From Neckera pumila (lineage: Eukaryota; Streptophyta; Bryopsida; Hypnales; Neckeraceae): a stretch of DNA of 64,000 bases. The DNA lies in assembly GCA_963969595.1 (NCBI GenBank), contig OZ018415.1, positions 8,246,001 through 8,310,000 on the forward strand. Direction: 5' to 3'. The position numbers and the translations under genes are program-made. Shown here piece after piece: positions 4,791-64,000 of this stretch (position 1 is its first letter; each line of letters opens with the position of its first letter). A model generated the notes under the pieces. It saw nothing but the letters and a program-made list of their open reading frames with translations. It searched no databases and was not told the DNA's origin.

Positions 4791-5140
4791 CCTCAAAACC
4801 TAAGATAGTCATGTGGTTCTAATTTGAGTTCCTTTAGCACATTCAATCAATTATGATTTATTGGTTTTATAAGCCAATTTTGTTTTCTTTGGATATAGTT
4901 ACATTTTCTTAGGAATTGGTTTTTTAATGTCTATTGGTATTTTTTGTTTGGTCTTGTGATTGTGACGTTTTAGAGGTTTTGCTTTGGTCCTACGACAGAT
5001 GCTGCCAATCATTTTGCAATGGTGTTTTTTTGGATATACCTTATTTTTTGGTTTTGCTATTTTTTATGTATGTAAATTGTTGCCTAGTTTAGGCTATACT
5101 CAATGTTTGTAAATGTTGGTGGTCAAGGTTAGGGTGCATA

Positions 5141-8100
5141 ATGTCATTTAAGGTTAAACTATTCTCCTTAGAGCACAAATGGAGCATTCCAGAGAAGATT
5201 GGTCCGATTATTGCAAAGGAAGGCGAGTCCTATGCCAACCTCCAGATCAGGTTGGAAGATGCAGATGTGGTAGATTGGCCATTCCTATTTTGGGATGTAG
5301 AAGACAAAGTGAAGATTAACATGAAGCTTGAGAAGCTGAACACCATCTTGCCAGAGATGTATGTCATTTCCATGGAGTCTGAGGCTACTGATGTTTGTAA
5401 GTGTCGTCGTGTCGAGGAAGAATCCTTTGTCTTCGAATCGGTTCCATCTGAGGCTACAGAAGTTGAGGGTGTTGTTTGCTAAGATGTTGCTGTTGAGGGT
5501 GTTGCTTGTGAAGATGCTGCTATTGAAGGTATTCCAATAAATCCAGCAGCTTGCTCTAGGGTCAGTTATTCAGAATCTAGATCATTGCCCAAATCGCTTT
5601 TAATTCCAAAAGAAGTTATGGAATTATATTTTAAAAGGGAGGAGAAATTGAGGAATGATCTTAAGCAGATTTTCCTTGAAGACCACAATTGGTCCTTGAA
5701 GTCTTGGGATTAAGATGGGGTTGGAATCCTCAAGGTTTATTGTGAGGGCTGCAAAGATATTGGAAGTAGAAGTGGTGGTCATACAAAAATCATTGCTTCG
5801 AATTTGTTCTCAAATTTTTGCAAAAGCCATTTAATGTCAAATGGACACATATGTAGTTGGTGTAGAAGGAAGGGTGTAGATTTTTGTAATCACCCTCAGT
5901 CAGCTACATAAAAAGGAAAGACAATCATGTTGACTGCTGCAGATCACAAAGTTTTGATAGATGAGGGTGTCAAAGCTGTAGATGGTGTCAATCAGAGTGT
6001 TTTATCTGACCCTACTCCCTTTGTGGTGGTTGGAGACCCTGATTGTGCTAAGGCTAAAAGCTTCTGGTTTAAGGTTAAGTGCACTTACTGTGGGGATTTT
6101 TTTCAATTATGTCTTTTCAAAAAAACCTTGAAGCTAACCTTAGGAACCACCTTGGTGGTACAAAACACAAGAAAGCATTAGAAGACGCTCATAATGCCAA
6201 GAACACAAATCCAACATTGACCAATGGCAAGAAAGGAAGGCTAGCTCAAAAATCAAGTGGTGTTGTCAATTTAAACCAGAAAAATATGCATGCATGGTTC
6301 AAAAGTGGTGGAGGCGGTAATCAAGAAGGTGAATCTCCCTTGTTGGACTGTTTTTATTTGCTTGGATTAATGTGTTGGGGGTTTAAAGGACCTACTTGTG
6401 TTTATGCTGGCAATACTTATGTTGTGGATCATTTGCTTGATGACCCACATCCTGGTGTCAAGTGGTATCCTAAACCCCATCTTCTTCATTCATTTCAAAT
6501 AGATGACAAGTCTGTCAATGTGAAAGGTACATTTAGGCATAAAGAATGTGCTCGGTTTAGTACATCTAGCAATTCCTTCCCTGATTTCTGCTGCAGTTTT
6601 TGTAGTCGAATTTGGTTGGAGCAGGATTTCAAGATGCGTGTAGTACGTGAGGATAGAGCCTTAGAAAAGGGGGGTACTAGAGATACAGACTAGGGACGCA
6701 GATTGGGATATTTGCAAGTGAATGAATTGTCAAGTCATAGTAGGGTAATCACTAAGAAATTGAGGCTTGAAAAAATGTATCATTGGGCAGCAAAAGCATG
6801 CATTGTGCAATTGAGGGTTAAAAGGCCTACCTTAAAAGAGATTGCAAAAGAAGCCTCTAGTCAACATAATTTGGTTAAATTTTGTAATGACATCATTTTT
6901 GCTCATAGGTCAGGGGCATTTGGGGGAAAGCCTGCTTTTTGGGATTTCATAAGGGATGTTGCATCCAACCTAAATAGGGATAAACAGGGATATAGGTTCT
7001 CAAGTAATACAAAGTCCTTTGGCCAAGCTATGAAAATATATGAGGGAAGGAGAATGTGTGATCTGTTCTCACTAAACTTTTCTGGTCCAACATTTAATAC
7101 AATAAAAAGGGAAAATAAGAAGGGTGTGCAATTCATTCCTGGAGAGCATGCCAAGATTTTTGCCTCAGTGGCAGAAATATACAAAGATGAAAAGGACCTC
7201 CATGGGATTGTAGTACCAGTACCTGTTATACTAGCAGAAGATGAAATAAAGGGTAAATCAAGGGTCACTTGGGAGCAGAAATTTGATACCTTGGCTGGGC
7301 TTTGTGGGTTAATGGCAGATCATGTATGTAAGTCATCATTTAAGCCATCCATAGGGGCTAAAGAGGTTGGATATAATAAGATTTTTGATAGTTTTCGTAC
7401 TTATAAGGTGGGAGGGTTTGCTAGGATGATTGTAGTAAATCCACTACATGACAGATTGCCGCGACTTGTATTGGTGGTTTGCAATACATGTAATTGTTTT
7501 GACTCCTCATGGGTTTGAAAGCATTAGGGATTGATTGACCAATTCTGGGATAAAGAGTGCAAGGAATCAGTTGGGCCAATTGTAGGCCATGCAAGTGACA
7601 GTGATTCATGAAGGCGCCAGTTGATGTTGGAGGATTATAAGATTACATATGGAGCACAATTGAAGGTGAATTGGGATGGTTGGCTGTTGATAACATGATT
7701 AGATGATATGGGTGATGCATTTGGTCTTCATGACCAAGGCTACATCCACAACAGGAAGAAGTTAGTGAATCCAATGGATTCCCCTGTAAGAATCCTCCAA
7801 CTAGGTGGTAATGTTGCTTGTCTTCAACATTTAGATCTTGTTAATAACAAATTCACATTTGATGAACATGGGCTAAAGAAAGAAGATATAGATAGGAGGG
7901 ACAAGCAAAATTGGGCATCTGCCCAATGCATTTGCCAAAGAAAGACCCGGATATGCTTAGCTAAATTGAAGACTACACTTGATGTTCATCTAGAGTGCAC
8001 TTTGGATACAGAGATGTACTTGGAAGTATGTGCAGATTACATAGATATTTTTGCTTCTCCTTCACTTGATTTGAGATCCAGGATAGTTCTTGTTGCAAAA

Positions 8101-9625
8101 GTTTCTTTCTTTTTCCACCTTTGGAAGCTTTGGCTCCAACATGGTGACCATTCAATTTTTGGAAATTCTCAAAAACCTAATGCATCTGAGAACTTTGTGT
8201 CTCAGCAATGTTTTATTGATGTGCAGCTCTCTTGTCATTTTGTGGTTTTATTAGTAACTCACTTTAGGGACAAATATCCCCATTTGCCGGCCCCTCTCCA
8301 TCTTATAGGTAGTGATTCTTGTGAAATCTTTTTCTCTAAAATTGGTGGCATGGTAGGGTTAGAAACGGCTTATGATTTTCATGACTTGGTGGATGCGACA
8401 AATACTTTGAATTGATTGGCAGGTATTGAGTATGGCAACAATGGGTTGAAGTTTGGACGGGTGCACAACAAGATGGAGAATGTGTGGGCCAAACTGCACC
8501 CTTTAGAGGTTGCTGAAACTCCTTGTGACTTGGGAGACTATAGTCTTATTAATGAAGATGAACAAGTCATTATAGCATTACAAGCGGGCTTTAGAGAAGC
8601 CCAAAAATTCTTGCAAATATTGAATATGGCCCCTTCAAGTCTAGCCAAAAAAAAAGAATGGTTTCTGACCCCATGGAAGTTTGAAAAAGCTGACAATAAA
8701 CACTTAGCATTTGTGCCAAGCAGATCACCTATTGTTGGTGAAGATGGTGACTCAGAGGTCCTTTGAGAGGCCCTACAGATGCCACCCATTGTGGATTCTG
8801 AAGATCATGGTGGGAATTTTGACCGTAATTCTGTCCTTGAAGATGTTTTAGAAGATGAACTTGTAGATGACAGTCTTGATTCTTTGGCATTACTTGAAAA
8901 TGAGACCTGTGATGTTTTCAATGAAATGCTAGACTCTCAAGAAGTGCAAGTGTCTACTATGGTTATCCCAGACTAGATTGTGCCTGTAGTTGAATTTGGA
9001 GGTTGTCAAATTTATAAATCTACTCTAGTGTCACAATTGAATGGAAATCCTTTTCTTTCCAAGGATAGGTGACAAGGGTGCGTAATTCAATTTATTTTAA
9101 TAATAGTGAAGACTACATTTTAGCTGCTACTTCTACTAACACATGCCTATTAGGACTTGGTTCTGATTGTGGTGGTTTTTTTTAAAAAGAAGCACCTTAA
9201 CAAAGTCTTCTACTGTAAAGTCTGCTTTGAAAAGGAAAAGGGGGCAAGGTACACAAAATGGGGCACCTTCTAGTATACTTCAGGGTGTAGATGAAGGAAC
9301 TTGGTGGGTCGGTCGGGTTCAAAAAATGAGAAGACAAGTTGGGACAAAGTGGGTCTTATCTAGACAACCTATTGACCTCATGAATTGACCTGTTCAAACC
9401 AACAAGAAAGGTATTTCTTCACCCTCTTCTATGCTACTACTTAATTGGTTTAGCAAGGCCCCTAGACATTTGAAATATAAGTACGACCATTCAGACCACA
9501 AATGGATAGATGTGGATTCCATAATTTCAATTGTAACTTTAACATATAATGCAAATTCTAAATTTTTTTCATTAGATCAAGAGGATGCAGCTTCTCTTAA
9601 CGATTTTGTAGTTGTAAGAAAATAA
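5141..9625 (+). pseudogene. Decayed transposon-like ORF, two zinc fingers plus transposase-like acidic core, unnamed family
   Basis: One protein frame can be followed for nearly 4.5 kb. It uses frame 2 from 5141, shifts to frame 1 at a T-run near 6100, and passes through frame 3 near 9075 back to frame 2 near 9167. Stops interrupt it at 5480, 5711, 5909, 6691, 7516, 7525, 7609, 7696, 8413, 8764, 8974 and 9070. The order is: an acidic N-terminal region rich in DW and FWDVED words (5141-5482); two zinc-finger-like modules (about 5740-5860 and 6085-6180), each with CxxC and later H-x5-H, like U1/BED fingers; a helical region; then GHASDSDS (7585-7608) followed by an Arg stretch and LMLEDY; then IGSDSCEIFFS (8305-8337); and an acidic tail. 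The spaced Asp and Glu around these motifs, and the E-x-F-F-S word, resemble RNase H-fold transposases of the P-element/THAP9 or hAT type. The start is the first Met of the coherent frame. I do not recognise the family; an abandoned multicopy host gene is the alternative. Confidence 0.65.
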
Positions 9626-10010
9626 ATTCTATTAAGGGAGTCTTATATTGCTTTATTGCCTTCTTCCATGTTAATGAAATGCTGATTATTTTGTGTTAAT
9701 GTTAATTGCTTGGTCTTATGATTGTAATTTCCAAATATTCTTATTTTGTATCTTTAAGGTTAACATTTAATGTTAATGTTAAAGTATGAACTAAGGTTCT
9801 TCAAATTGGGTGAAAGAATCACAAGTATAATGTATGTTAAAAAATTGGAAAAGTCATTTATGCTATTTTTCTTTCTTTATTAGGTTATAAATTGTTTTTT
9901 TATGCTTAAATTGGAGTTAAGGTTTTAAGTAAAAGATTATGGAATGTTGTATCTAAAATAGGTGAGCAGTTTTGGGTTTAAAATTGTGTTAGGCTATGCT
10001 TTTAATATAA
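9626..10010. other. AT-rich 3' flank of the transposon-like ORF
   Basis: There is no reading frame of note. The sequence is AT-rich, with TTAATGTTAATG-type short repeats near 9690-9780. It could be the 3' untranslated part of the preceding element, but no terminal inverted repeat was identified. Confidence 0.4.
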
Positions 10011-14786: not shown

Positions 14787-15122
14787 ACAATTGTGTTTGG
14801 CACTCCTTCTGTGGGCAGGGTTGCTAAAGTATGAGCAGGGAGCGTTGAGCAATGAGCGATGAATGTTGAGCATTCAGAAATTTTTGAAGAATTTGTGGAA
14901 AATCTATAATTTCTTACCATAAGGGTTTTTGGTCCATGATTTATTTTAAAGCATAAAGCTATAGATGCACTCAAAGAGGGTGAATGGAGATGAATGGAGA
15001 TGAATGGAGTTGGATGAATTATTTTTTAGTTGGCTTTATTGAATGAAATACATTTGTTCATGACATTGGATGAAAATGAGTTTGGATGATTAATGGATGA
15101 TTGGGACTATGAAACCATTTGT
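14787..15122 (+). repeat. Dispersed repeat sharing one terminus with 33650-34005
   Basis: The interval starts near a TGTTTGGCACTCC string and carries GCTAAAGTATGAGC followed by GAGCGTTGAGCAATGAGCG. On the minus strand at 34005-33925 the same order appears as TTGTTTAGTACC, GCTAAAGTGTGAGC and GCGTTAAGCATTGAG. Both copies also contain GGATGAATGG-type short repeats (near 14980-15020 and 33655-33700). The ends resemble PIF-type termini (GTTTGG-like), but target duplications were not fixed. It is probably a MITE family. Confidence 0.4.
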
Positions 15123-16588
15123 TTTAAATAAATGTCACTTATCAAACATCTTAAATCCAAGGTTTAGGTGTTTTAAAAAAAATTAAGGACCCATGCTTAT
15201 ATGGTATTTTTAAACCATTTTAGGGTGAAGGTACCACATCTAATTAAAATTCAAAATTCTTTTTAAACATTTTTGAAATTCACCAAATTCATTTTGATGC
15301 TAACACAAATATTTACTATCTCTTATTACATGTTTGCATAGAAAAAAATACCATGTTGCTAACAGAAAGAAATAGATTAAATCCACAGAAATTTCTAATA
15401 ATTGACAACAATAACCATTAGCTCTTGAAACGGATGCTTTTTTTATTACCATTCTAAAGATCATCGAAATGCAAAATAATTTAAGAATATGATAAAGTGC
15501 AAGAATGTAGTGGCCCTTTTAGTCTCACTATATGACATTAGAAAATCAAGTAACAACAATAGTCTTTTAAACAAGATCAATTTGACCCAATGCCACATAT
15601 AAGAGAAGAATGATCACTGGCTTCACTACTATCACTATATGAAAGCCTTGGTGTCTCAACATCTGCTTCAAGGTCTAAAAATTTCTTGACAGAAGTATTG
15701 TATGAACGATGTTTGGCAACAGAAATGGGTCATGGAGCCTCTGCCATAACTGTTGCTAAAGTCTCGATGTAACATGGCAAACTCTTTGGACTAAGAACAG
15801 GCGAGAGCACCAAATGCTTGAGAAGATTGCCTCTACAAGATGCAATGATTAAATAATTAGAAACTTTGAACAAATTAAAAGACATTGCACAATAAAAAAA
15901 AATAAATACATGCCTAAAAGCATCAACAAACTTACTTACAGCAACGTCGTTTTTGAGGCCTTGTAGAAGGTTTGACAATGTCCTCGTCATCAGAATCATT
16001 CAGCACTATAGGTAAAGGCCGTTTAGTTTGAACGGTGGTAGTAGAAGTAGGAAGGATGATCAAAGATTGAAGAAGACCTTTAAAATCTCACTATCGCTCT
16101 CCAAGGCCATCAAATAATGTCCAATATTGCGGCATGCATAGATAGAGGCCCCTATTCATTGAATGCAATGTCATTAGTTGCACCAAATATATTATATACA
16201 ATGTAAAAAATACATAGTTTGAATAATAAAAAATAATGACTAATGAAAAGTACCTGTAGATGCATAACAATTCAATACCACATCACCAGGTTTTGAAGAT
16301 GCCTCGATTAGTAGCTGTACAAATACAGGGGCTTTCTCACGGGCACCTCTCCACGGAATTGTACCATTCATGAGCTGAGTTTGCAAGGAGGTGTAATTGT
16401 GGAGAAGGTCAACTTCTTCAAGATTTGTACCCGCATCACTAAGCTGTTGGTTTATAGTGATAGAAAACTTGGATACCACCGATGTTTCCTCCCATTGTCT
16501 TCGTACAAATAAGAGGATCTGAAAGTGTTGTGACTGCAAGGGATAAACAAACATGATATTTAGTATTTGACTAATACAATGTTACTAG

Positions 16589-16838
16589 CACTATACCAAA
16601 ATGTGGTAAAAAGAGCCGCAGTCAAAATTCATTGCAGTATTTTTTTTCTACAGTGCTGTACATGCTGTTGATTATTGCTGCAACTTTCTTTTTGCATTTT
16701 CTAACTCGATTTCTGGAATTCGAAGGCGTGTAATGTACCATTGGAAAGATATTAATCAACAGCATGTACAACACTGTGGAGAAAAAAAACTGCAATGAAT
16801 TTTGACTGCGGCTCTTTTTACCACATTTTGGTATAGTG
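16589..16838. mobile_element. CACTA-type foldback MITE in intron 10 of the methyltransferase pseudogene
   Basis: The 250-bp element starts CACTATACCAAAATGTGG and ends with the exact inverse. Its arms of about 85 bp are nearly identical, and both ends abut TAG (16586-16588 and 16839-16841). CACTA ends with a 3-bp target duplication are the hallmark of the En/Spm (CACTA) superfamily. It has no coding capacity and could form a strong hairpin. The near-perfect arms suggest it is younger than the decay of the host exons. Confidence 0.85.
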
Positions 16839-18459
16839 TAGAAGTTATTCAAAACATCAAAAACTACAAATGAGAAAAAATTTAGTAAAACTCACCCAAC
16901 GTTTGGATTTTTTGAAACTCGAAAGCTTCATCTCATTCACACCCATCCAAGAGTCAAATAGACGAAAACCATATGTATCGGCACGTTCAATGGTAAATTC
17001 CTTTACCTTGCTATTCTCCGGATGGAACAATAAAATTGCTCCATCATCATGAACAAACTCCGAAGCAAATTCAAAGATGGGTCAATAACCTCTTCTTGAT
17101 TCAACACGTTCCAAGCAGGAATATTAGAAGGCGGAATGGAGAGATTGGGGACCGGTAGTCCATCCGGGATATCGGCAACAATCAAATCAAAGCATGCAAT
17201 AGGGCTTACGGAGCCTCCAAGAGTTTGCACTCGGTCCCTACCAACCTTGTCAATAAAAAATGCACACCGTAAGTTAGATGTATGAATAAACTGCAATATC
17301 ATGCTAATAATTTAATGTGAAATGAAAGAAATTAATCATAACAAGGCTAGAGAATGTAGACCTTACCTTTTGGGCAAAATCAAGCATTTCATTCCATGTT
17401 GATGCATTGTCCCCCATCTTCTCCTTAATATTGAGCATTGCAGAAATTGATGATGATAGAATTAGAGTTTGAAGCTCAACACCATGTCTGTCAGGTTGAA
17501 TTGCGGATTTAGCAATGTACTCTAATAAAGCAAAGACATCTGTCGTAATAGACATGAGAGTATGAGGGCAATGAGATCAGGCCGTATCATTGACTTCCAA
17601 AGTGCTAGGAGGCACAAAAGAAGGAGTAGGTACAAAAGTTGAAGTTGGAACAGATGAATTAGGGGTGTCGTCTTTTGTGGTTGTCTCTTTTGCCGTCATC
17701 TTTGTAGCCTTCTTCTCCTTTGGCTTACACCCCTTCTTCACCGGTGCAACTTCTTCAACCTCCTCTTCATCAAGAGACTCTTCTTGTAAACTTATTTTGG
17801 GATGGTCTTTAGCAGCCTCTTTCTCAGATGCTTCAAGTGCTGGGGCAAAAATCCTTGGACACTCTAGATACCAAGGACACGCTTGGAGCTTTTGAACAGA
17901 AAATCCTCGTTGTTGAATCAAAATAAACATACAACCCTTCAAAGAAGTATCAAGCCATCCTCTAAACAATTTGGGCATGAATTTTTGCTCAATTCCACCT
18001 TTTAGAATGAGCTCTCGTTTGAAATATCTGCAATCATAGAATAAATGTGAATGTGTGACTATTACAATGACAAAGATGCACATGCATTTTTGATGATTTT
18101 GTAAAACAATTAAGATGTACAAAACCGAAGGCAACTAAAATAAAAGATATACTTGTATAGAATCCTCCTTATAACCACATTTGTGCCTTCTTGGTCTTTG
18201 AAAGGAGTAGATCGTGAATACTAAGAGTCTTTCTTGAACAACCACCAAAAAGCATGATCCCACAACACAATGCGCCATGTCTTCACATAATCTCCAATTG
18301 AATCCAACTCATCGTTGGCATTCCATTGAACTACAATACTTTCAGACTTGATGATGCTTGTGAATTTTGCTTTGGCTACTTCCTCCAACTATAAGAAAAT
18401 TCAAAATATAAGTATGAAGACATTATGAAGGCAAATTATATCATAATAGTATGGTACAA

Positions 18460-18566
18460 AACTATACTAACACGTGGTAAAAAGAACTGCAGCGTATACA
18501 ACAATGTGAAAGAAAAGACTATAATGAATTGTGACTACAGTTCTTTTTACCACACTTTGGTATGGT
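18460..18566. mobile_element. Internally deleted, degenerate copy of the same CACTA-type MITE, intron 7
   Basis: The left end ACTATACTAACACGTGGTAA and right end ACCACACTTTGGTATGG match the termini of the 16589-16838 element with several substitutions. The internal part keeps only a right-hand segment (ACAACAATGTG then AATGAATTGTGACTACAG). It is an older member of the family in another intron of the same pseudogene. Confidence 0.7.
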
Positions 18567-20420
18567 AAAAAAACTTAGAAACTTGTAAAATATAAATACT
18601 TATCATGTGAATGAAAGATAATGTTGATCACATACCTCAGCCCAAAATGAAGCTTTACAGAGTCAAGTCTCTAAAGTCGTTGTGTTGAAACCAAGGGCGG
18701 GAAATCTGAAACCCTCCCTAGAAGTCTCACTTGAGTTCCACCACTTAAGCCAACAAACCTTGTGGTTTGGTTGAACTTGGTATGTAGAAATCCTTTGAAG
18801 TTTCTCCAAGGACATCTCAGGCTTTTTGTTGGCACTGTAATGCAAGTTTATCTAAAATTGAAAAGACAAAAATATAGTAAAAATCAAGTCCAAAAATAAT
18901 CATGTAAAGAAAGAAAGCAAGTGGACATAATAATATACCTCTTCTAAAAATCCAACACCATTTTTTGGATTTGCAATAGCAGATTGTTTATCAAACTTCG
19001 TTCAAAATCCTTTGATAGCTACAGTGGCGGCTTGAGTCATGGCCTCATAGACACCCCTCAGAGTTTGTTCTTCCAATTGAGTCATCTCATAGTAAGTTTG
19101 CACAGTCACATCTGAAATAGTAGCAATTTCTTGCTGCACATGAAAAACATGAATCTGAAACTAATATAAAACAAATTTTACAAATCACAATAAAGAAATA
19201 GAAAAATTTTAAAAACAAAAAATACTCACCCAATGAAGGAATTGTATGAAGACGGAAGATGTCAATGGATACCAAGCACCTGGTAGCTTTCGGGTCTCAC
19301 ATTTCTTGTAATCCTCATCACTTAGAAGCCCCTTGAACTCTTCCAATTGCAAGTTGCCATAGGTACTCATTCTGTGCAATTGTTGAACCAAGTTGCTTTT
19401 GACATGGGAGTGCTCCGTAGACCTGCAAATATCAATGGAAACAGAATGTAAAATGAATGAATATGAAAGTATAGAATATTACAATACAATTGAAGAAGCG
19501 ATAAAATAAAATAATTTTTTTAAAAAAAACATTGGAACTCACCAATTGATGTCATTCATAGCCTCCAATAGAATGCATGTATGGCCTTCGGACACCAATA
19601 ACATACAATCAACATGCAAATGCCACTTGTGATCATAACGATGCATTCTATGGATGTAAGCATATCAAGCTGCCAATCTGTGATTGCCATCCCATACAAA
19701 AAACATGTGATTTGACAAATATGAGATGGTTGGTTCAGAACTCAACCAACGCTCAAATTGGTCATTCTTGTGTATCCAGTGTTCATCCCATGTCTCTATG
19801 ATCTCAGGTGTCACTAACTTGGAAGCTCCTTTGTCATTTGTTGTTGATACATAAAGTACACAATCACCTTGTCGATATCCATGAACAAACTCAGCCTCCA
19901 ATCGTTTCACTTGACTTTGAAGGAGAGGATGGACCAACGGAAGCCTAATCATCCTACACAAAGGAATATCCAATTGGTACCTTGAATGACCACCATTGAA
20001 GAGCATGTTGTTGATGACCGCATTGGAATCCAATTTCTGACCATTTCGCATGTCTTCTTCCACCTCATCTACCGTCTGCCCTTCAAAAAGTAGATCATCA
20101 TTTTGAATATCAATGGTGCTGTCAACCTACAAGCAACAGAAAATTGAATTCAAGTTATAATAAACATTAAGAAGTCATAGGAAATAAAAACAAATAAAAT
20201 AACAGCTATAACACTAAAACAATCATAGAAGTTATCATACAAACATAAATAGAAATGCATCTAACCTGAGGATTGCCAACCACAAGCTGAGAATCATCAT
20301 TGGTGACTAGCTCCAACCGTTCTATTTGTGGAAGCCCTCTATTGATGTCCATGAAGCTCTATTTTGAGAAAACAAGAAGAAGAATTTTTTACATCTATAT
20401 TAAAAATCAGCCTAAATATT

Positions 20421-21224
20421 AACCTCGTTAACAAGGTCACATTTTCAGCCCAAAGCAAGCATCGGCAAAATACATTTCAAACCTAAGACTGAAGTTTAGA
20501 TTCTCTAAATAGATCTTTAGAAAACCTGAAAAAGAGACCTCGTTAACGAGGTCAATTTTTCCAATGTAATTCAGCACTCCATAGCAAGAACTAAGAAGCC
20601 TAAATTTGAAATTGAAACCATATGAGTGATCTCTAAAAAAACCCTGAAAACTAACCTCGTTAACGAGGTCACATTTTGCAATCTATTTTAGCAGCCTAGA
20701 AATCAAATCGAAACTATCTTTGTCATCTCCCAAAACCGTGAAAAAGTGACCTCGTTGACGAGGTTACATTTTGCAATCTATTTTTGCAGTCTACAGAAAA
20801 AATGTGAAGCCTAAAATCAAAACTAAACTATCTTTTTCTTCTCCTAAAACCCTGAAAAGGTGACCTCGTTAACGAGGTCAGATTTTCCTATCTATTTTAG
20901 CAACCTTATGAAAAAAAGCGAACCCTACACTGGAAACTAAAAATGTCTTAGTGATTTTAGAAATCTTGGAAAAGACGAAAAGTGACCTCGTTAACGAGGT
21001 CACATTTTCCAATCTAATTCAACAATCTGTAGAAAGAATTTCAAATTATGCATCAAAATTTGAAACCGTCTTAGTAAGACTGTAAAGAACCCAAGAATTT
21101 GACCTTGTTAATGAGGTCAAGTTTCAAACCTTAAAACTGCAATCTTACGAAAATCATACATGAAAACCAAAATCGTTTGACTGATCTCCTAAATCCACGA
21201 AAAAATGACCTCGTCAACGAGGTC
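20421..21224. repeat. Tandem array of eight 18-bp palindromes, period about 115 bp, in intron 2
   Basis: GACCTCGTTAACGAGGTC or a close variant occurs at 20421, 20536, 20653, 20748, 20862, 20984, 21101 and 21207, spaced 95-122 bp. Each is followed by a short AT-rich block, often ACATTTT then CAATCTA, and later an AAACCCTGAAAA-like block just before the next palindrome. The whole unit is therefore repeated, not only the palindrome. Changes within the palindrome are often paired, or avoid the GTTAAC core. The array fills most of the intron between exons 2 and 3. It could be an intronic minisatellite or a protein-binding array. Confidence 0.9.
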
Positions 21225-22261
21225 AAGTTTATAGCCTGAAAAAGGAGTGTTCAAAAATGGCACCTCTTGAGGATCTGTAGGAACTTGAACTTCCATCGCA
21301 TCGACGCCTACAATGCTGTCGGAGACACCCTCCCCACCTTCGCCGCGCGCCTCTCCATCCTTGCGCAGCATGCCACTTTGTAACTTCATTGCGAAAACAA
21401 CCTTAAGCAAAAATACAGCAATGAAAAAGGAAGAGAACAATACCAAAGCAAACCAAAGACCAGCCCGTAGCGTCGGTCTTTGGTCTCAAAAAAAAACAAA
21501 AAAACAAACAAAGAAGAGATTGGTAGATATAGGCCAAAGTAATCTTTCAAATAAAATCTGCAATTTCAAAGATTTTTGGTTCAAGTTTTTTACACGCATA
21601 GATTATGACCTCACAAGTAACCCCAAATTTTTTCAGATTTTTTGAAGTTATGAGGAATTTTACAAAAATCCGCAAAGTCTCCTAAAAATACTTGGGCAAG
21701 ATTTGGCCGAAAATCAGCCAATTCTGAAGATTTCAAAAAAGATTCCAAGATGCTAAATTGGTTTTTAGGCCATAAAACATTCAAAAACTCTTCGATTTTT
21801 CCGTGCTATATACGGTTGGAATCATCTCCTCGAAATACATGAAATGAAATTTGGTGTTAAATTCACTTCTAACAAAAAGTATTTAACACATACACTCAAC
21901 TCCTCACAGTCTAATGGTTCTAGTCCTAGCAATGAATACATGAACTTACCAACTCTGCGCTGATTACTAGGGACATGTTCTTTTCTAGTATACTCAGTTG
22001 GCATACGTCCACTTCAATTTCATCAACAGTGCCAAGCTTGGCAATATCCATTCCTTCACTATTTTGTGTCAGACTATACTTCTGTTCAAAAGGTGCATCT
22101 TCAACCCCATCATCCTCATACGACAAGGTCCAAACAATGCTACTAATCTCACCACCATTGGATTTCTGCAAGTGTCTAAACATCTTTGATTTCTCTAGCT
22201 GTTTCTTACTAGAAAAGCAAAGTCCTGCCTTACGTCTCTTTCTATGAGAATCCTTCGGCAT

Positions 22262-22879
22262 CCCTCCAACCAAAAAAATCCAAGAAAGCAAACTCAACTT
22301 TTTCATTGGCAACATCACAATCTCTTCGATATATAGCATTCTTCAAGTCTAATGAATGTATTCTCATCCAATTCATTATAGCTTCTCAAAACAAAACATC
22401 TATTGACTATGATATAAACAGTCAATAAGATCATCCGTTCTTTGCTCAACTGCTTCATAATTACTTTTACATTAAAAAAGCCTCCATTTGGGGCCTTCTA
22501 ATCACCCTTTGATGTGAATGTGGCGTGTGAGTGTTTTGAATCCCACCCTATATTCTAACATACACAATCAAGTTCTATGAATAAATCTAAGTCCATGGGT
22601 GATTGGTTTGTAGCAAACAAGTTGCCTTCCAAGCAATGGAGCTTTTTTACCACAAAGGTGAATAACTAATAGAAGTTGGATAGAAGTTTGATTTAATTCT
22701 AGGTTGTTTCTTATCTTGACACTTTGACCCAATTATAAATGTTTTAGTTTTGTCTAGTTTGTTATTAAGTTAAGTCTGACTCAAGGATTGTATGGGTTTT
22801 AATCTAAATGCGTTTTGTTGTAATTGTAATTTTACTTTTCTTATTGAATTCAAGTTTTTATTCTATTCTCTCTTTGTTA
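22262..22879. other. Region upstream of the ParB-methyltransferase pseudogene
   Basis: This would hold the promoter of the minus-strand pseudogene. A TATATATC string lies near 22330 on the plus strand, but I cannot fix a TATA box. No other gene or element is supported. Confidence 0.35.
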
Positions 22880-23330
22880 ACCAACCTCTATCTAATTTCT
22901 ACTTTGTCTTCTACTTTGGTTAAAGAATTAAGGATTAGTTCAAGTTTTCAAGGTAATTGATAAATTTTGACGGATTTAGCAGTTCATTAAAATTTATCCT
23001 AAGTTTTTATCTATCCTTAAAGTTTAATGTTTGGTTTTCAAAAGGTCTTTACCTATTTTTACTGAAATCGTCTCACTTTCTTCTAAATTTTCTACCTTGG
23101 TTAATTTACTAGATTCAGGTTGTAAGATTCTTGGTAAATTTTGACCGATTAACGGTTCATCAAAATTTACCTTAGGTTTTTTATCCCTCTAGTTAAATTA
23201 TTTTAATTTTTTTCGTAAATTTCCTACCTTCGTTAAAGATTCAATTACTTAAAGTTAAAAAGTTTTAGTAAATTTTGACCGATTAACAATTCCTCAAAAT
23301 TTACTCTAACTTTTACCTATTCTTGAGATA
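22880..23330. repeat. Degenerate tandem repeat, about three copies of a 135-165 bp unit
   Basis: Each copy contains TAAATTTTGACCGATTAAC-like sequence followed closely by TCAAAATTTA, so an imperfect dyad recurs near 22967, 23133 and 23271. CTACCTTNGTTAA-type words precede each dyad. No coding frame is present. Confidence 0.6.
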
Positions 23331-26188
23331 AATTTAAAGTACTAATTACTGTTAACTTTTTCCCTACTAATCCCTTCCGGTAAGTTTTGGTTTAAATTAT
23401 TGATCAATTTTACGACAAGTTGTGGTAAAATTCCGATGGTTAATTTCTTTTTTACTTCTACTGGGTTGGTTAAATTAATTTGACCTAGTGGTTAATTTCT
23501 TTTATTGTGGAAGTAAAACCAAGGTTAATCTTTTTAATCCAAAGTAAAGGTTGTTTAGGTGAAATTAGATTTCACCTAATTCTTATTTACTTGGGAAGAA
23601 AAAAAACTTAACTTGAGTTTAATTCCTTTTGGGGTTCTATTTTAAATCTCTAATGTTGTAAATTTCCTTCTCAATTTCCTACTCTAATTTAGATCCTAAA
23701 TTCCTTTAGAATATCCTTTGGATAATTTCCCAATTTTCATTCATTTCTTACGTGGATTTCATTTTCTCACTACTTTTTCAATCTTTATCGGATTTTTATG
23801 TTTAATATCTTTTCGGAAAGTTAAGAGAATTTCCTACTTAATTTTGAGTTCTGATTTGACTAATTAAATTATTCTAAGGTCTGATTCCAAGTCCTACTTT
23901 CGGCTCTAGGTTTTTAAAGCAAATCTAGCTTAATTGAAAATCAAAACGCAATTAGAGAGTTGAAATTAGGCTCGTACCTTGAAATCGTAGATGGTTTCAT
24001 GTTCCATTTGGTTGGCAAAATCCATCCTCCGTTGGTGCGCTCCCTCCGTTGTCGTATTGAGAGGAGCGCGTTTTGGGAATACGCAAAGTATCTGGTTGCA
24101 ACTGGCACTAGTTAGTCATTGACTTCAAATAATCTTCAAGTCTTCTAGTCTTCAATCTTCTCTTCGTTCTTCAGCCTTCAAACTCCTCCCTGTTGGCCTA
24201 TCCTGTATTGGCTCTAAACGGGTCAGGATTCGGTCAGGTAGGTAATAAGAACCACAGGCCTCGGACGGGTAAAACGGGACAGCATAACACGAGATGCCGT
24301 CCGAATGATGGGCTCCTAAAATTCAAACTCCCGGTGACCAACTCTAACTAGGCTTTTAGCTTTCACCGTGAGAATAAACAGATTCGACCATGTGGGTGAT
24401 TAAATCCCACCGTCTCCACAAACACAAAATGAGGCTAAGCATTGGTTTAACCCAAGCCGCCCGCAACAACAAAAGTTTACAATAAAAGACAAGCCACAAG
24501 CCACAACACACAAATTCTCCTCCAACTCCAACTTCAAATCTTCACTCCAACTTCAATTTCAAAGCTAAACTTTGAATGAACGCCACCAATGCTCCACAAC
24601 TCCAAATAGAATGAATGATGGCTCTTTGTAAAGCTAATAAAATTTCCAATACTTTCACCAAATTTCAACTCATTCAAATATTCTCTCCAATATCTATGAT
24701 TGCCCAAAGTTTCGGCCTCTAAAAGTGAGGGCAGCAGACCCTCCTTCACTTCAACACTCACAACTCACTCATAAATGCTCCAAATACAACAAATGATAGC
24801 TATTTGAAAAGCTAACAAAATTCTCAACAACTTCTCAAAATTTCATTGCAAAATAAAATCTGTCCGTCTTCTATGGTTGGTCAAAGTCTCAGCCCCTTCA
24901 ATTGGGAGGCAGCAGACCTTCCTCCACTCAAACTAGCACAAATCTCCACTCACAACTTCAATTCAAGTAAGAAAAGACCTCTTCCAATCACCACATCATA
25001 ATACACAACTCCTCTAATTTTCATTGAAAAACCCTCCTCTCCAAAACATAACACAACAACACAAGAAAAAAACTCCCTCCTAAAACAATTGGTTTTCCCT
25101 TTACTCCCAACAGGAGAGACGATGAAAAGTCCTCTTTTTTTATCACCTATCTCCACTCTAACTTCACTCTATCTCTTTATCTTTTACTTTTCCATTCTAT
25201 CTTCACCTTATCTTATCTCTAACTTCACTCTATCCACTCTATCTACGAAATAAAGAACTAAAATCTACATATATCTAGTAGAGGTAAAAAAAACTAGAGC
25301 TCTAATTTCTTGAGACTCAGAAAAAAACCCCTCTAGTTCGACATAGTATAATCTAAATAAAACACAAAGAAAAAAAATTTCAAATGAGATGAAGCTACCT
25401 CAAATGACTTCAACTTCTTTATGATGCAACAAACATTAAAACCTATCTAAATCATATATATATACATAATCTACATAATGTCTGCATTTGCAACACGACA
25501 CCGTTCTTCGTATATGTTCGATTTTTTATATTTGGAAATTAATACAATGTGGAATTTTTTCCACTTTCTACTTTGTTCCAAGTAGTTCTTAACTTTTATG
25601 CTAATTTCCTAATTTTCTTGTCCCATTTTATGCTATTTTTCCTTTTGTTTTCTATTGTTTTCTTTTCTTTTTCTTTAAGTCCTAATTTTCAAAGGCAATC
25701 TTTGAAAATCTAATTCTAATTGGAAGTCTAAGTAAGACCAACTAAGCTTTTTAAACTTACTCTAATTTAGCTAATTCTAGAACTCTTCCAAGTCAATTGA
25801 TTCTTTATCTTGTTTTTTATGTATTGACTTTGGAATTCTAATCTAAACTATGGCAAAAAAGTCAAGCTAGAGTATCCTTTGAGATTTTGGTTACTTCTCC
25901 ACAGCTTGGGACTTTGAGCTTCTAATACTTGTTTCCCATCTCTGAATCGTGATGAGTGTGTGTTTCGCTTGAATTTTGGTTACAATTCTGTAACAGGGCT
26001 TGATTTTCCAGACTCTGGAGCTTCCTGGAGCACCCTGTAATCACCTTGCAAGCTCTTTGTGAGTATGAGGCTGGTCAACCTTCACCTCTCGACCAAGCAT
26101 TTGATTTCTTGTTAACCTGGTCTTTATAAACTCTGAATCAGAGTTCCCACTCAATCTGGATCTCTCTGGATGTGATCCTTTCTTCTCA
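23331..26188. other. Gene-poor, pyrimidine-rich interval
   Basis: I see no coherent gene. A patch near 24050-24430 has higher GC with words such as CGGACGGGTAAAACGGGACA. It could be part of an old LTR element, but I found neither paired LTRs nor reverse-transcriptase motifs. Short frames at 24534-24761 and 24950-25156 (minus) lack recognisable motifs. Confidence 0.4.
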
Positions 26189-26570
26189 AATCTGAAATTT
26201 TCGTAGAAGACGGCTTTCTCTCACTCTGGACCTTCTTTTACAAAATCTGCAATTTTATGAAGGCACCACCCTTTCTGACTCTGGTTTCTTACTGACTTAA
26301 TCTTCCTTTCTAAAAATCTGAATTTTTTATAAGGAAGAAATTTTTCTCACTCTATCTCGCCCTCTCTGGCTTGTCCTTTTTTCTTTCCAAGATCTGAATT
26401 TTATAAGATAGAATCTTACCCCCTCTGGACTCTCTCTGGGGCTTGACCCTTTTGCAAAAACCTGAAATTTTATGAAAGCCGAGTTTTCACTCACTCTGGA
26501 CCCTTTCTGATTTAGCCTTCCTTCTTAAAATCTGAAATTTTTGGAAAGGATGGATCTCTCTCTCTCTTCG
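26189..26570. repeat. Degenerate tandem repeat, about six copies of a 65-75 bp unit
   Basis: Each copy begins with AAATCTGAAATTTT or a variant, continues with a purine-rich stretch, and ends with CTCACTCTGGACC or CTCTGGNTT followed by a pyrimidine run. Copies start near 26189, 26237, 26311, 26390, 26457 and 26528. It appears noncoding. Confidence 0.65.
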
Positions 26571-29362
26571 GTTGTTAAATTCTAATGCCAAAGTGAAAAA
26601 GATTATCACTCACTAGCCTAATTCAGTCTTGCTTAAGTAGAGAAATTTAAAAGAAAATCAAGGTTCTGGGCCCCCGTGGGTGTCCTCCCAGTTTTAATTA
26701 GTTGATGATGTATGTGAGATGGGTTGGTGACTCCAGTACTCTGATCAAATGGAGGCGGCCTGACAGCCCGTACTGGATGCCTTCGTTGAGCTTATACTCG
26801 GCTCCTTGCTTGGTACTCTAAATCTGACTACTGGCTGGGCGGGCTGATACCCGATTCTCGGTGGCTTCTTGGTTCCGACAGCTGGCTGGTTCGGACTGTT
26901 TGGCAACTGGACTACTTTGAATATTTGGTTTGGAATTCCAAACCTTAACAACTAGGCGGTTGATGCCACAAACTGGGGTCCCTCAAGGGACCCTTTAACT
27001 GAAAACTAAACTGGATTTTTGGGTTCTATTTCTAAGAACTATCACACCACTCTTTTTATGATTTTTTGAGGACTTTCTAAAATTCTATCTAGGGACGAAG
27101 CTTCGCCATCCTGGAGGGTATTTCTTCCAAAGTTTGACAAGATAAGTTTTAAATTGAAAATGTTATTTACTAAAAGTTATGTCTAAGGGCGAAGCTTCGC
27201 CGTATTGGGGGGTATGGCCCAAATTCCGGACAAAATCCCACTTAGCGGTTAGTATGAGGGTTGGATCTCACCCAACTCACTCTAAAAAATATAAAAGACT
27301 CTTGGACCACTTCTTCCAACGTCTAGGCTTCAGGGGGAATTTGCAACAACCAAAGAGGTGTGAAATTCCTCACCAAAAAAAAGCTTGGTGGGAAGTTTGT
27401 TAGTAGACAACAAAAAAAACACAAAATCTAAGGATTCCAACTAATGGCATCGCCGAGATTTGGTTGGAATATCTTTGGTGTTAGTACTAAAATCAAAATG
27501 AAGAAAGAAAACACAAAACACGTGTTAGCAGTGGTTCAAAGGGACCCAACATCCTTTGAATGGCACCAAAATCAACAAAAGGGGAGTTCAAGACTCCAAA
27601 TGCATAAAAAGCAAGGTTTTTGGTTCCAGACCAAAAACTCAACAATTGCCAACGATTTTGGTAGAATAACAAAGAGGAAAATCTAGAGCCTCGTGTCGAC
27701 TCTTCAAACAAAATAAAGAAAAAAGGGGTGCAAAGGGAGTTGGTGGGAGCCCTTTTATACTTTTTTGGGGCTCCCATTAACCTCCTTTTACTCTAAATAA
27801 TATCTACGTAAACTAAAATAATATCTAAGTAAATTAAAATGACTAACTACTACGCCTAATTCTATCCTACAGCTGAATGGGCTATATCTTTTGGAAAAAA
27901 GCTCCAAATGGAAAACGGTCTGCGGCGTTGGCTCCAGAAGACCCTTTTTAGTCTAGGGACCCCCTAATCCCCTACTCCTAAGTCGATTTTCTTCATAAGA
28001 GATAGTGTTTTCCAACCTAGTGAAAAAGGTGGAAAATCCAACTCTTGGAGTTTATAACTTTTGCTGATTCTAACTAGCCAGGGTTGTCTGGAAGGTCCAA
28101 GAATGTCAAAAAAGAGTTGTTGTTGACTTAATTTGGACTTTGTCAGCTCGTGATTCGCCGGTCCATCCGCGGAATGTTTTGGAATTCCGTTAAATTCCGT
28201 TAGCGCCGCCGGTTTGGATAGTTATTGATGTCGGAATGTTGTGAAACTTGATTAGACTCTTATTCAAACTAAAATACACTATCCTAATTTTTAATGGGGT
28301 TTTACCATTACCAGATTAATTTCTATGAAATTCTTAATCCGTGGTAATTTTGGTTGACTTCCCAAGGAGTCATCTTCTGCAATTTGGAAAATTACCAAAT
28401 AATTTGGGTAGCTTCTAGGAAGTTCCCAAACCCTTTCTGCAAAATTCCTACCCAAATTGGTACTTATTCAAGGAGAAATAAATTCCTATCTCCTGATTTC
28501 AATTCCTTTACAAAGGAATCTTCCTCGTATGATGGAATCTTGGCAATCCCTCTTCGCCATTACGCTCCTGGCATGTTTCTAAGTTAGAAACACCTCTCTC
28601 CATGTCGCGGTCGCCTCCTCGTGATTTTCTATGAATTTTGGCTTAAAAAGTCCTGCGGGGCAACTATTTACCAATATTTTCTTTCAAGCTCGATTTTCAT
28701 CCAAACTCCTCTCATGGGCTTTCTAAGTTACTGGTAAACTATAATGACTTATATTTACTATTTTTAGCCAATTCACTATTTGTGTGCATCTTCGTGGTAA
28801 AAACTCTTTGTAAATTCTATCAATATTCTAATATTTGGGTGTAGGTTGGAATTAGAACTCTCCCAATTCCTATTTGGGCTTTCATTTATCCATTTCTACT
28901 ACTAGAATTTAAGAAAGAGCACATATTTGAATGGTTTTGATGCTTTTTGGGTTTTCATCTCAACAAGTATTATTCTATTTCAATTATTCACAAAGTAATA
29001 TAACTGGTCAATTTGATAACAATTTACTCATTAAAATGAGTAAAAAGCAAAAAATTTTAGACTTTGAGTTCCAGGTGACAACCTTGGGACTCACATGGCG
29101 CTATCTACAATTCATAATTTCAAAGATCGGGTACTGGTAACTAAATTAAAAAATCAATTGTTGGCCGTGTATAAAATCTTTAAATACAATGCTCTCAATT
29201 CAAATTTCAAATTTCAAATTATCAAAATCCTACATAAAAAAGCTCAAATCCATATCCACTACCTTTTTGTCTTCTACCTATTATCGCTAGAAACCTTCGG
29301 GATTCTGTCAATAGTTCCATGTAAGCAATGACATTCTGTAGGAATTTGTAGATTGTATACAC
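26571..29362. other. Gene-poor interval with a short direct repeat
   Basis: A pair of similar segments at about 27092 and 27186 share an AGGG(A)CGAAGCTTCGCC word, palindromic at its centre, followed by GGGGTAT-like sequence. Patches of higher GC occur near 26680-26990 and 27900-28230. The frames at 26745-26951 (minus) and 27179-27777 have no motifs I recognise. No LTR, RNA gene or transposase motif was found. Confidence 0.4.
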
Positions 29363-32300
29363 ATGCCAGTATGGACATGGCACTTTGTTCATGGTGATGA
29401 GTCCAACATTCCAATTTCTTTTCCTTGTAGCGATGGTGGTAGTGCATGGGTATCTATTTTGATTCTTAGTGTATGCTTCAATTTAGAGTTGTCATCTCTA
29501 TGGATGGAAGAAGAGCTATTTGATTTTCAGGGACTTCAAGGTACATCTACAGTCATGCTACTAAAGATCAAAATAGACTCTGGAGATGGCTGGAGGCTTT
29601 CTCCAAGCAAGTACCATGCTTTTGGCACTCCTAAGTTCACTAGATCGATGTCAACCGCAATTCTCACACCTAGATCTGCTACTTCTACTGTTCAAATGTC
29701 TTGGGGAACTCAGGTGAAAGTAGAGTCTTCAAGTCATAGCCATATTGATCTTACAGAGTCTTCGGGCGATGATGCTGTAATTTTCATTGATGCAAGTCGC
29801 AAGCTATCTACCATATCCAAAAAGTGTACACACTATTCAAAGTACGGATGATATTCAACATGATAGCATGTTGCATCCTTCAGTTTATGAGAGGGCATCC
29901 AAGTTTGTGAGCGTCTTAGAATGCCTTAAAGATATGCAAAGTCGTCCGTGTGCACGAAATGAACTGAAGTTTTTAAATCTCAGTACAATTCGTTGTGAAT
30001 CTGTACGACATCTTCCTCAATCATTTAATGGAGACGTTCTTTTTGAATTACCTCCTCTTCTTTCTTCGACATCTCCTTTTGGAAGTCGGCCCAATTCAAC
30101 TTCCTCATTTTTTGTAGGTTGACAACTAGAAGGCATGGACCGTAAATTTGATGGCTACAATTGGATACCCACACACACTACAAACATTTCAAACGACTTT
30201 GGTTTGAAGTTCCGCTATTCCTTATGTGTGGGTCACCTAGTTTGCAAAAACAAAGCCTGCCCTAGACTACCCCGAAGTGGCAGCAAAAACGAGACAGAAT
30301 GGGAGGGGTCATCACCTAGTGTCTTCCTTGTAGGAGAGTAGTCTCCATCAAAGTCTACTCTTGTATATCGAATATGCAAAGAAGTTCCTTTCTACAAAGC
30401 TTCATGCCCTTGTTGGATGTATAGGGTCTTGAACTCTTTAGGCCTTTCTAGAGCTTATATCCACGTTAAAATTCATAATCATCCTGTGGGTAGAGACATG
30501 TGTCGTGATTCTATTGATCGAACAACCTCTTTGATTGGTGAAGAGGTATCAAGGACGCCTACAACAACAAATTCGGCCAACAATTTGCTGCTAGTAAGGA
30601 ATTTCTTGCATCTGAATTGTTTGGAGAAGAGCTCGGAGAAGAGGGATTACAAGATGCTCGAAAGCCACTTTGCAGAGAGGCCCTTGAGGCAGTCATGGAT
30701 AAATTTTGAATACTCAGTTCACCGAGTATTCGAAATACCATCTCTAATTTTAATTACAGTACAAGTGGAGGACCCATTGACAACATTATTTCATTGAAAA
30801 TGAAGAGTACTTATTCGTTTATTCAAGATAGTGTATTTCCAGGCCAAGGTAAAGAAAAGGTTTACCTTTTTAAGATGTCTAAAGAAGGCCCGGGAAGTGG
30901 AGTTGATTTGGTAAGGCGAATGCAATCGGGGGGAGACTTGCAAAATTCTTGGTGCATGTTTGATCATGTAAAGAGGGTGAAAGGATGGACATCAATGGCT
31001 GCTCATGTATACGACCCTGAGTTTTGTCGGGTTCAAACTATTTGCGTTTGCGACATAATGAGCGAGGATGCTCAATCCCAAGAACAAATGTGGAGATCCC
31101 TTAATTCAATCATGGCACGCCACGGGATTCTTCTCCACAGTTCAAGGATTTTATGGCTGACAATGCGATGGCAAACTGGCATGCTGTTTGGATGGTGTAT
31201 GAAAGTGGCAACAAGCAAGAGCCCATGCAAGATCGAGAGCGCTCTTGTCTACTTCATTGGACAACTTCACTAAATAGACACACAGAAAAACTCATTTGAC
31301 TTGAATTCCAAGAAACTCACAAGAAACTTTGCAAACAATACAAGGATGCAAAAACAATGGCAGAAGCAGAAGAAAGATACCTGGGAATTAAGGATTGGTG
31401 GCTTTCTTCAAGGGCTGCATCAGAGGATTCTCTTCGACAACTAGATGATTAGTTGGGTTTCTGGCACTTCCAATATTGACAGTGGGGTGGATTCTTAGAG
31501 TTGGTAAGATACATGCCTCCTTCCATTTCAATTTTTCTACTTAATTGTTCAACTTCTATTCATGAAGTAGCTGTTTTACTGTCCTAAATGTATATGTGGT
31601 TTCTATTTGATTCTTTCATTCACATCTACTGAATTTGTACAAATCTGATTTGAACATATGAAATTCTTAGAACTTAAATGACACTTTTAGAATCAAGGGA
31701 GCCTTATATTGTTACTTTAAATTGTTGTTACTGGTACAGAACTTGAATTTAAAAGAACTGGCCGAAATGCCTTCATGCAACTTGGCTGAGACAGTTCACA
31801 ACAAATGGTTGCAAATGTCTGGGAAGAGGGAAATATGCTTGTACGTCACCACTACTGATGACATGATGCGGGCTATACAACAATCGACTAATTATTGGGC
31901 ATACCTCCAAGGGTATGCATCTAGAACTGGTCCCCACTTAGATGAACTTCGTCTACGAGCTACAAGATGAACCAGAAATCCAGCAAACTTTACTGAAGCT
32001 GCTGCCAAACTACCAGATGCTTGTCTATTCACCACAAGAATTCTCCACTTGGAAGGGGAAGAAGTATTTGGTTCTTCAAAGCACAAACTAAACCTATCAC
32101 CTAGATCAGATAGTGATTCTTACCGCCACGATACAGTGAACTTTTCTGCACCCAAAGTTCAAACTCGGTCAACTAGAGCGCGCACTGAAGCAGGCGCATC
32201 AATGCCAACGCCAATACCACGGTTGACAGAGGAAGGACAACCAAGCACACTATGTCCCCATGCTACCAAGGTACTTGAAACAAACTGCAACCTTGCTTTG

Positions 32301-33266
32301 TGGCATATTGCTAGATGCAAAAAAGAAGGAAAAACTTCTTATGGAGTTCAAGTTGGGATGAAGAAGAAATGTAGGGCCAAGATAAATAAATCAAGCAAGA
32401 GTGAAACAACAGCACCTACCTACAACGGCCGCATGACAGAATATGGAACCAAGGCCATCATCAACTTTAATCTCTGGTTTTGTGCAGATGACCTTATGCG
32501 TTGTACAGGAGGCTCTAAGGTCAAGTGGATTCACGACTGGCCTCCTTTGCCAAATGTGTGGCCTATTGCATGTGGAACACATCTTACCAAATCAAAGATC
32601 CTTTCTCTGGAGGAAGCAGGCTTTCAATTACAAACTAAAGAGCTAGGCGAAGCAACACTCCATCTCTTTAATGAAGAGTATACAGATGGAGGTGTATCTT
32701 TCCTTCATTCAAAACAACCAAATAGCAATTTGCAACCATCTAACGGTGATATACATCCGACGAAGCAATTGGGTAGGACCATACAACGTAATCCTAATGC
32801 ACCTACAATCGACCATCGCAACAAATGGGAGACAGCACGAAACCTGAAAGCTGTTGTTCAATCCGCAGTCGTTATTCCATATCCTGGCTATGGAAGAGTG
32901 ATAACTCTACTGTCCGACATCTTTCCCAACTAGAAGGTCTATCGAGTCATAATTTCAGACTTTCCTACTTGTACCTGTGAAGACTTCATCACCATGAGTA
33001 CAGCTGCACTTGGTAGTAGGAAATCCTGGGTAAACTGCAAGCATTTGTATTATGTTTTTAGGTTCATTTACAAGGCAAATTCTGAGGACAATAAGTACAT
33101 ACATGCACCAAATTTGAGCTTTGATGAAATGAAGTTCCTTCTTGTAGGTAGCAATCTATAAGATGTTGTATGTTTATCTTGTAATATTAGGTTGAAAAAC
33201 TACTTTTGTTTAGAAATGGATACAGAATGGCCCATTGAAGTAGTTGACACGTATGCTAAATCCTAA
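29363..33266 (+). pseudogene. MULE-like transposase pseudogene with C-terminal SWIM zinc finger
   Basis: Three exons are inferred: about 29363-31503, 31740-33147 and 33214-33266. The introns are 31504-31739 (GTAAGA donor, GGTACAG acceptor) and 33148-33213. The last exon joins in phase and ends in TAA. Domain order: a Ser/Thr-rich N-terminal region; a Cys/His cluster from about 30200 to 30490 (LCVGHLVC, later IHVKIHNHPV), like the WRKY/GCM1-type finger of MULE transposases; a central core with HVYDPEFC and then FMADNAMANWHAV in a shifted frame near 31150; a linker; and a SWIM zinc finger at about 32955-33060 (PTCTCEDF then VNCKHLYYVF, the CxC...CxH pattern). Breaks include frame changes near 29800, 30580 and 31130, and stops near 30120, 30340, 31290, 31450, 31970 and 32931. 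Mutator-like transposases cut and paste DNA using an RNase H-fold core. The core is called from context rather than a clear DDE triad. Confidence 0.72.
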
Positions 33267-33649
33267 TTAGTTTAAGGTGGAAATAGTTTATAGCAGCTTA
33301 AAGACAATTGAAATGATTTGTAAAACCATAAACATAAAAAAAATACATAAAAAAAGGCTAAATTTAGCCAACAAAAAATTGTAGGAAGAAATGTTACAAT
33401 TCTACAAATGAATCTCGAAAGTGCTACTAGATTCCAAGGAGAACTTTTCATAATGAAACAACATTGTACAACCAATTGTTGCATATTTCTAATTGAAATT
33501 TCCAAGAGTTTCTTAGTTACAAAGAATACAACCAATCTCAGAATAGTTAACATCAACAATGCAAACTTCAAAAAATTTGTAAATTATTATTTTTACAAAA
33601 AAAAAAAGTTCATTTTTTTAAGACATGTTACAAATATGTAAAGAAAGTT
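33267..33649. other. AT-rich interval between transposase pseudogenes
   Basis: The sequence is AT-rich with poly-A and poly-T runs. No gene is supported. It may hold the 3' end of the MULE-like element, whose terminal repeats I could not identify. Confidence 0.4.
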
Positions 33650-34005
33650 TTGGGAGGATGGATGATGAATGGATGACATGAATGAAGCTCATTCATTCAT
33701 CAAATCTATAGTTGAAAAATCATCTACTTGTAGGAAATGCTAGTCCTTCATTTATGCCAATTCATGCAACATTTAAATGTAAAATTCATTATTTTCAATA
33801 AAAAATGCAATTTCTTGGATATATTTTTTTATTTTTGTTTTTTGACATTTCTATATTTAGATCTAACAACCCTATTTATTACTCTGACATGTTTATTTTT
33901 AGTAAAATTCCTTGCAGTGAGGGCTCAAATCTAATTGCTCGTCACTCAATGCTTAACGCTCACACTTTAGCACCGTTGCTTCTCTGGGTACTAAACAAGC
34001 CGCCA
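33650..34005 (-). repeat. Dispersed repeat, inverted relative of 14787-15122
   Basis: Read on the minus strand, it begins near GGCTTGTTTAGTACCCAGAG and carries GCTAAAGTGTGAGC and GCGTTAAGCATTGAG. It ends in ATTCATCATCCATCC-type short repeats. The order matches the element at 14787-15122. It lies just downstream of the PIF/Harbinger pseudogene and may instead be part of that element's 3' end. Confidence 0.4.
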
Positions 34006-50251: not shown

Positions 50252-50674
50252 ATACAGGGAGAGTCTGCCAATCTTTACATTTTCAAAACATTTCATAACA
50301 ATTTCATTGTTTCAAAATGCAAGTAGCTTCAAATCACTTGAATTTGGTGTCACTGGCAAAAAAGATAACATCTACTATACTTGCAATTCGTAGTGAGTCT
50401 ATGATGTGGAAAAATACATAGTAGATACATGGGCTCGTAATTAGCTTCGGACCATCTACCATATTTTTCACAGAAAGAATTCAATACTTGATTTAGAATT
50501 ATGTGCAAACATTTCAAGTTAAGACATAAAATGTTAAAAAGAAAAAAAATCCATCTAAAAAAAATAGCAATAGTAAACCAACTGCAACATTTGGGCTAGA
50601 TGCCAATTCCGTTTCCCTTCCTTTTAAAAATTGTTTCAAGCAGTTTAGCTTCCCCAGAATGCAATCAGCTACTT

Positions 50675-63955: not shown

Positions 63956-64000
63956 TTTAATAAGGTGAAAGCACCCCAAACCGTCAATATTAAGTAATTC

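Follow-up and report, generated by a model that had tools for sequence, protein, structure and literature searches.

The window analysed in this work, a stretch of 64,000 nucleotides from Neckera pumila (C8:8246001-8310000 of a 339.5-Mb assembly in 18 contigs), carries a 13-exon ParB-methylase-like gene which belongs to large, high-copy DNA transposons with terminal inverted repeats (TIRs). We consider it probable that this is an accessory gene of these elements and that its protein is a DNA-binding factor acting on its own element. The copy in the window is an old, broken member of the family with a nested insert and two divergent genes. Its features are compiled in Table 1.

Table 1. Positions of the transposon copy and its parts within the window.
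Feature	Position	Strand	Basis or remark
Complete transposon copy (about 19.2 kb, nested insert included)	14816..33978		homology end, TIR pair, near-target-site duplication
Target-site duplication candidate	14806..14815	+	10 bp, 1 mismatch to partner; slack search, both ends
TIR, end adjoining the ParB-methylase gene	14815..14876	+	62 bp; 69% identity with 33918-33979 in reverse complement
ParB-methylase-like accessory gene	15577..22261	-	13 exons; pseudogene in the window copy
Exon 11, putative methylase motif I (SAM site)	16254..16533	-	profile matches and copy alignment
Exon 10, putative methylase motif IV position (VADIPDG)	16896..17290	-	motif read
Exon 4, WDGNHR motif in the ParB-like region	19543..20126	-	motif only
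Intron 2 with 8 palindromes of type TGACCTCGTTAACGAGGTCA	20359..21263	-	also in 4/4 relatives (A1-A4)
Nested insertion, 6.6 kb	22525..29096		absent from 4/4 relatives (A1-A4)
Transposase-like gene remnant, strand opposite the ParB-methylase gene	29408..33158	+	pieces with 29-53% identity to minus-strand ORFs of B1 (12.2-kb element)
TIR, transposase end	33918..33979	-	partner of the 14815..14876 repeat
Target-site duplication candidate, partner	33979..33988	+	slack search, both ends

The gene is real, yet broken in the window copy. It runs over about 1250 codons, all of its 12 introns have GT-AG borders, and GC content is 0.417 in the exons versus 0.302 in the introns; exon-intron boundaries were picked by eye to preserve the frame. 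When the openness of each exon was compared with 500 shuffles, no shuffle was as open as exons 1, 4 and 9, and five were as open as exon 11. The corresponding numbers were 23 (exon 8), 31 (exon 5), 56 (exon 10), 64 (exon 6), 84 (exon 7), 119 (exon 2), 153 (exon 13), 237 (exon 3) and 299 (exon 12), and openness of several short exons is indistinguishable from that of shuffles. Six in-frame stops (exons 4, 6, 7, 8, 9 and 13) and two frame breaks (exons 10 and 12) were present. A previous sequence-only reading of the locus had the coordinates, strand, exon count, introns and quoted motifs of this gene right; it gave no account of the extent of the breakage. In protein searches, neither a long query of the window gene (E<=0.001) nor a 401-aa C-terminal query (E<=10) retrieved a relative. 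Intron 10 contains a foldback MITE-like repeat (window 16585-16841), and a related arm pair lies in intron 7 (18461-18566). Near the exon 10-11 region, a stretch of approximately 340 bp aligns also in inverted orientation between copies A1, A3 and A4; this stretch is perhaps the intron MITE.

A search of the genome with the exon 4 region gave 395 first-look candidates, and all 150 that were scored matched at E<=5.5e-21. Ten copies were retrieved with 20 kb around each and are designated A1 to A4 and B1 to B6. Copies B1 to B6 have one block of approximately 12.16 kb in common, with common ends, and show 97.9-99.1% identity for the nine pairs listed. By eye, both ends of the B copies begin with inverted ...GTGAGCGG, and perfect 10-bp target duplications flank four of the six copies, while no matching duplication was found by eye in the other two. 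The multiplied family and the mobile element proposed from the window sequence are thus both borne out. The methylase block contains one stop each in B4 and B5 (in B5 at motif I) and none in the other four B copies. Apparently, this cut-and-paste transposon family has in part been recently active. The A2 segment (L029/L030) holds, beside its A-type copy, an additional ParB-methylase copy of B-like type in inverted orientation, and consists of nested or adjacent elements.

On its minus strand, B1 has long ORFs of 506, 382 and 371 aa; scans of the 506- and 382-aa ORFs gave no Pfam match at E<=1. A SWIM-like CxC..CxH run in the transposase-like gene of the element, together with the length of the target duplication, suggests that the putative transposase may be of the Mutator-like class. 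Transposase-like homology was found near the ParB-methylase-like gene in 10/10 fetched copies, as fragments in A1 to A4. This finding bears on the idea that a host gene family with a role unrelated to transposition has been captured by, or hitch-hikes in, transposons of the Pack type. Such an origin would fit the introns and the many diverged genome matches that are stop-free in the exon searched; given the transposase-like homology in every fetched copy, fragmentary in the older ones, and the algal parallel in which the gene is a transposon gene (PMC12477816), we regard it as very unlikely. Contamination with bacterial or phage DNA, for which the bacterial type of the architecture could be cited, has a negligible probability. 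It is refuted by the 12 introns, by the location in a chromosome-scale contig and by the many dispersed copies, and two pattern-based contig scans, with a reach of close relatives only, gave no relative.

In the window, the limits of the element were determined by comparison with the A copies, which are 87-96% identical to it in the main blocks and run straight across the nested insertion. Within the window, homology breaks off at position 14816 for A3 and at 14840 for A1, and earlier for A4 and A2. The TIR pair of the window was detected in a comparison (E 7e-4) where it ranked third among 195 rows, with AT-rich ones ahead of it, and the 10-bp flanks match at nine of ten positions when slack is allowed around both ends, a match for which no control was run. 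An exact-seed scan of the window for TIRs and target duplications gave nothing above shuffles because the TIRs have diverged. Based on the homology end in A3, the TIRs, the flanks and the transposase-like pieces, the element therefore extends from about 14816 to 33978.

A broken plus-strand transposase of approximately 1500 aa (5137-9630) was rejected as partner of the ParB-methylase-like gene since it lies outside the element, which ends at about 14816. The protein collection yielded 40 relatives of it at E<=0.01, the one with an organism name coming from the liverwort Calypogeia fissa, which would suggest a bryophyte host. None of four family members scanned matched Pfam. An alignment-based model of one relative (pLDDT 82) matches the P element transposase of Drosophila with E 7.5e-9 and TM 0.68 to the target. 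Elsewhere in the window are a remnant of a Plant_tran (PF04827) transposase (34810-35055, minus strand; E 1.5e-6) and an inverted repeat pair (49696-51306 and 61353-63964) with pieces 88-94% identical.

The putative assignment of the N-terminal half to ParB is at the level of a motif. The GxxR box II motif is present as DGNHR in the window and as EGNHR in B1. The pattern DG[NHQE][HGRQ]R..A, composed after the gene had been seen, has a single occurrence among the 127,996 residues of the window's six-frame translation, and this lies within the ParB-methylase-like gene. The profile match that a ParB domain had led the sequence-only reading to expect was not obtained, as neither the window gene nor the B exon matched PF02195 at E<=1, which leaves the DGNHR motif. 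In an hmmsearch with a phage ParB profile, 254 of 3000 shuffles scored as well as the ParB-like part. An hhalign comparison gave a probability of 2.3%, reached by 0/60 shuffles, with only 14 columns aligned, and the single-sequence fold (mean pLDDT 36) was unusable.

For the methylase half, repeated profile matches weakly suggest a beta-type (permuted) methylase. The C-terminal 256 residues matched PF01555 at motif I with E 0.0011, a sub-threshold hit of 19.4 bits versus a cut-off of 26.7; the same residues matched the CcrM model (E 0.0084) and the MboIIA and DpnA chains (E 0.02-0.026). PHROG profiles matched the methylase half as well (PHROG 6952, E 7.8e-5; another profile, E 6.8e-4), and a ParB-methylase profile built from nine phage proteins, selected among 293 records with a query coverage of 80% or more, scored 12.3 bits, a value reached by none of 3000 shuffles. 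The hhalign probability was 66% (0/60 shuffles). A B1 ORF that includes intron sequence did not match PF01555. The beta-class methylase proposed earlier thus holds at a weak level, with the order of motif IV before motif I as described, while PF01555 stays below its cut-off.

The consensus of motif IV in beta-class amino-methyltransferases is D-P-P-aromatic. Tyrosine occupies the aromatic position in 9/9 phage ParB-methylases fetched. In the transposon family, motif IV reads [D/N]-x-P-[D/E/K/N], with its position kept and without an aromatic residue, in all 16 copies examined (window, A1 to A4, B1 to B6 and five distant copies). These copies make up a small fraction of the family and represent at most seven groups, as two of the distant ones look similar. 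A decay model, run before the other copies were seen, indicated that three changes in motif IV (DIPD) after breakage of the gene are unlikely (P 0.013-0.023 at 4-5% decay). The model suggests that the odd motif predates the breakage, which agrees with the lack of the aromatic residue in 16/16 copies. The motif I aspartate is kept in 13 of the 14 copies where motif I aligned, the window having asparagine; no motif I alignment was obtained for L049 and the A2 gene itself. With motif I retained and the aromatic residue of motif IV gone, SAM binding by the methylase-derived part has probably persisted, and ordinary base methylation probably has not.

These observations also bear on a self-marking function, in which the protein would still mark the transposon with 6mA or 4mC, a role proposed for the Ectocarpus element. 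The beta-class motif order and the conserved SAM motif agree with it, and the authors of PMC12477816 suggest it for the algal relatives. The uniform lack of the motif IV aromatic residue and the improbability of its loss after breakage argue against it, and we judge self-marking unlikely. An active methylase is less probable than an accessory protein that binds DNA.

Intron 2 of the window gene contains eight 20-base palindromes at a spacing of about 95-122 bases. Eight or nine palindromes were found in each of A1 to A4, so that the array is present in five of five copies of this subfamily, and it was not present in 6/6 B copies; the family therefore does not need it. Measured ungapped, the palindrome cores are 89% alike as compared to 34-54% for windows starting at least 20 bases away. 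With gaps, TRF reported 80% matches between adjacent units of one array part. Between dispersed copies, divergence was 6.7% in cores versus 4.8% in spacers; it was 2.8% versus 4.0% without CpG columns, and 22% versus 26% in CpG columns. Shielding of the palindromes from decay was not supported, as cores decay no slower than spacers between dispersed copies. The palindrome core was therefore kept during formation of the array, and not visibly after the copies had scattered. Use of the palindromes in the manner of parS would be a guess.

The array might instead be an ordinary minisatellite and the ParB label wrong, the protein being another nuclear factor. This explanation is doubtful but carries some weight, for it accords with the missing ParB profile match, the neutral decay of the cores between copies and the absence of the array from the B copies. 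It is opposed by retention of the GNHR motif in the distant B subfamily, by the single occurrence of the motif pattern in the window, and by a domain order that matches phage fusions.

Phage-enriched ParB-PF01555 fusions are listed in PMC12704722, and Bce_0392 is a ParB-methylase fusion with PF02195 and PF01555 (PMC5512222). The gene described here resembles such phage and bacterial fusions in domain order and beta-class motif order. The latter differ in their length (397-466 aa in the nine fetched), in the motif IV tyrosine and in the lack of a long central region, and the one scanned clearly matched both PF02195 and PF01555. The N4CMT protein of bdelloid rotifers is likewise a eukaryotic PF01555-type protein with introns, but carries a chromodomain and reportedly deposits 4mC (PMC8885841); the main text of that paper does not mention ParB. 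Among the closest known systems is the Ectocarpus element Sola1-1_Ec32, on which a 1104-aa ParB-like plus N4/N6 methylase gene lies opposite the transposase (PMC12477816). Both are two-domain proteins of similar length encoded on giant DNA transposons and transcribed opposite the transposase. Host and element are different, however, and the degenerate motif IV and the palindrome array of one subfamily set the present case apart, as far as the published description of Sola1-1_Ec32 allows comparison. For green and red algal cases, PMC12477816 cites Iyer 2011 and Petroll 2025.

In Arabidopsis, Mutator-like elements of the VANDAL type encode the accessory protein VANC, which counteracts silencing and binds short motifs repeated within its own element. 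Like VANC, the ParB-methylase-like protein would be the product of an accessory gene on a TIR transposon with clustered short motifs in the element; VANC is not known to have a ParB or methylase part. According to the reading we favour, the gene, which in the copies fetched is transcribed divergently from the transposase-like gene, most likely encodes a protein that binds the element's own DNA and thereby aids movement or escape from silencing. Its methylase-derived part would probably retain SAM binding without the usual base methylation, activity having presumably been lost. In one subfamily the intron-2 palindromes may be the sites of the protein, and its function would resemble that of VANC. 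A more specific version is distinctly unlikely: a ParB-type clamp joined to a SAM-binding, catalytically retired methylase would load on the intron palindromes, as bacterial ParB does on parS, and keep the element accessible or direct the transposase in a land-plant transposon family.

A gene of this kind, lying opposite the transposase of an algal transposon, has already been published (PMC12477816); among the titles listed from the open-licence literature, no land-plant case of a transposon-borne ParB-methylase gene appeared. New are the plant-like host, the many copies, the intron array of eight to nine palindromes, seen in 5/5 copies of a single subfamily, and the motif IV without aromatic residue in all copies examined. 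ParB-methylase accessory genes on transposons, reported for algae, are thus also present at high copy number in a plant-like nuclear genome, and the family includes very similar full-length copies which are amenable to testing. The alteration of motif IV across all copies examined is an argument that the fold of the methylase has been kept for a role other than ordinary base methylation, and the altered catalytic motif makes the idea that the element marks itself directly testable.
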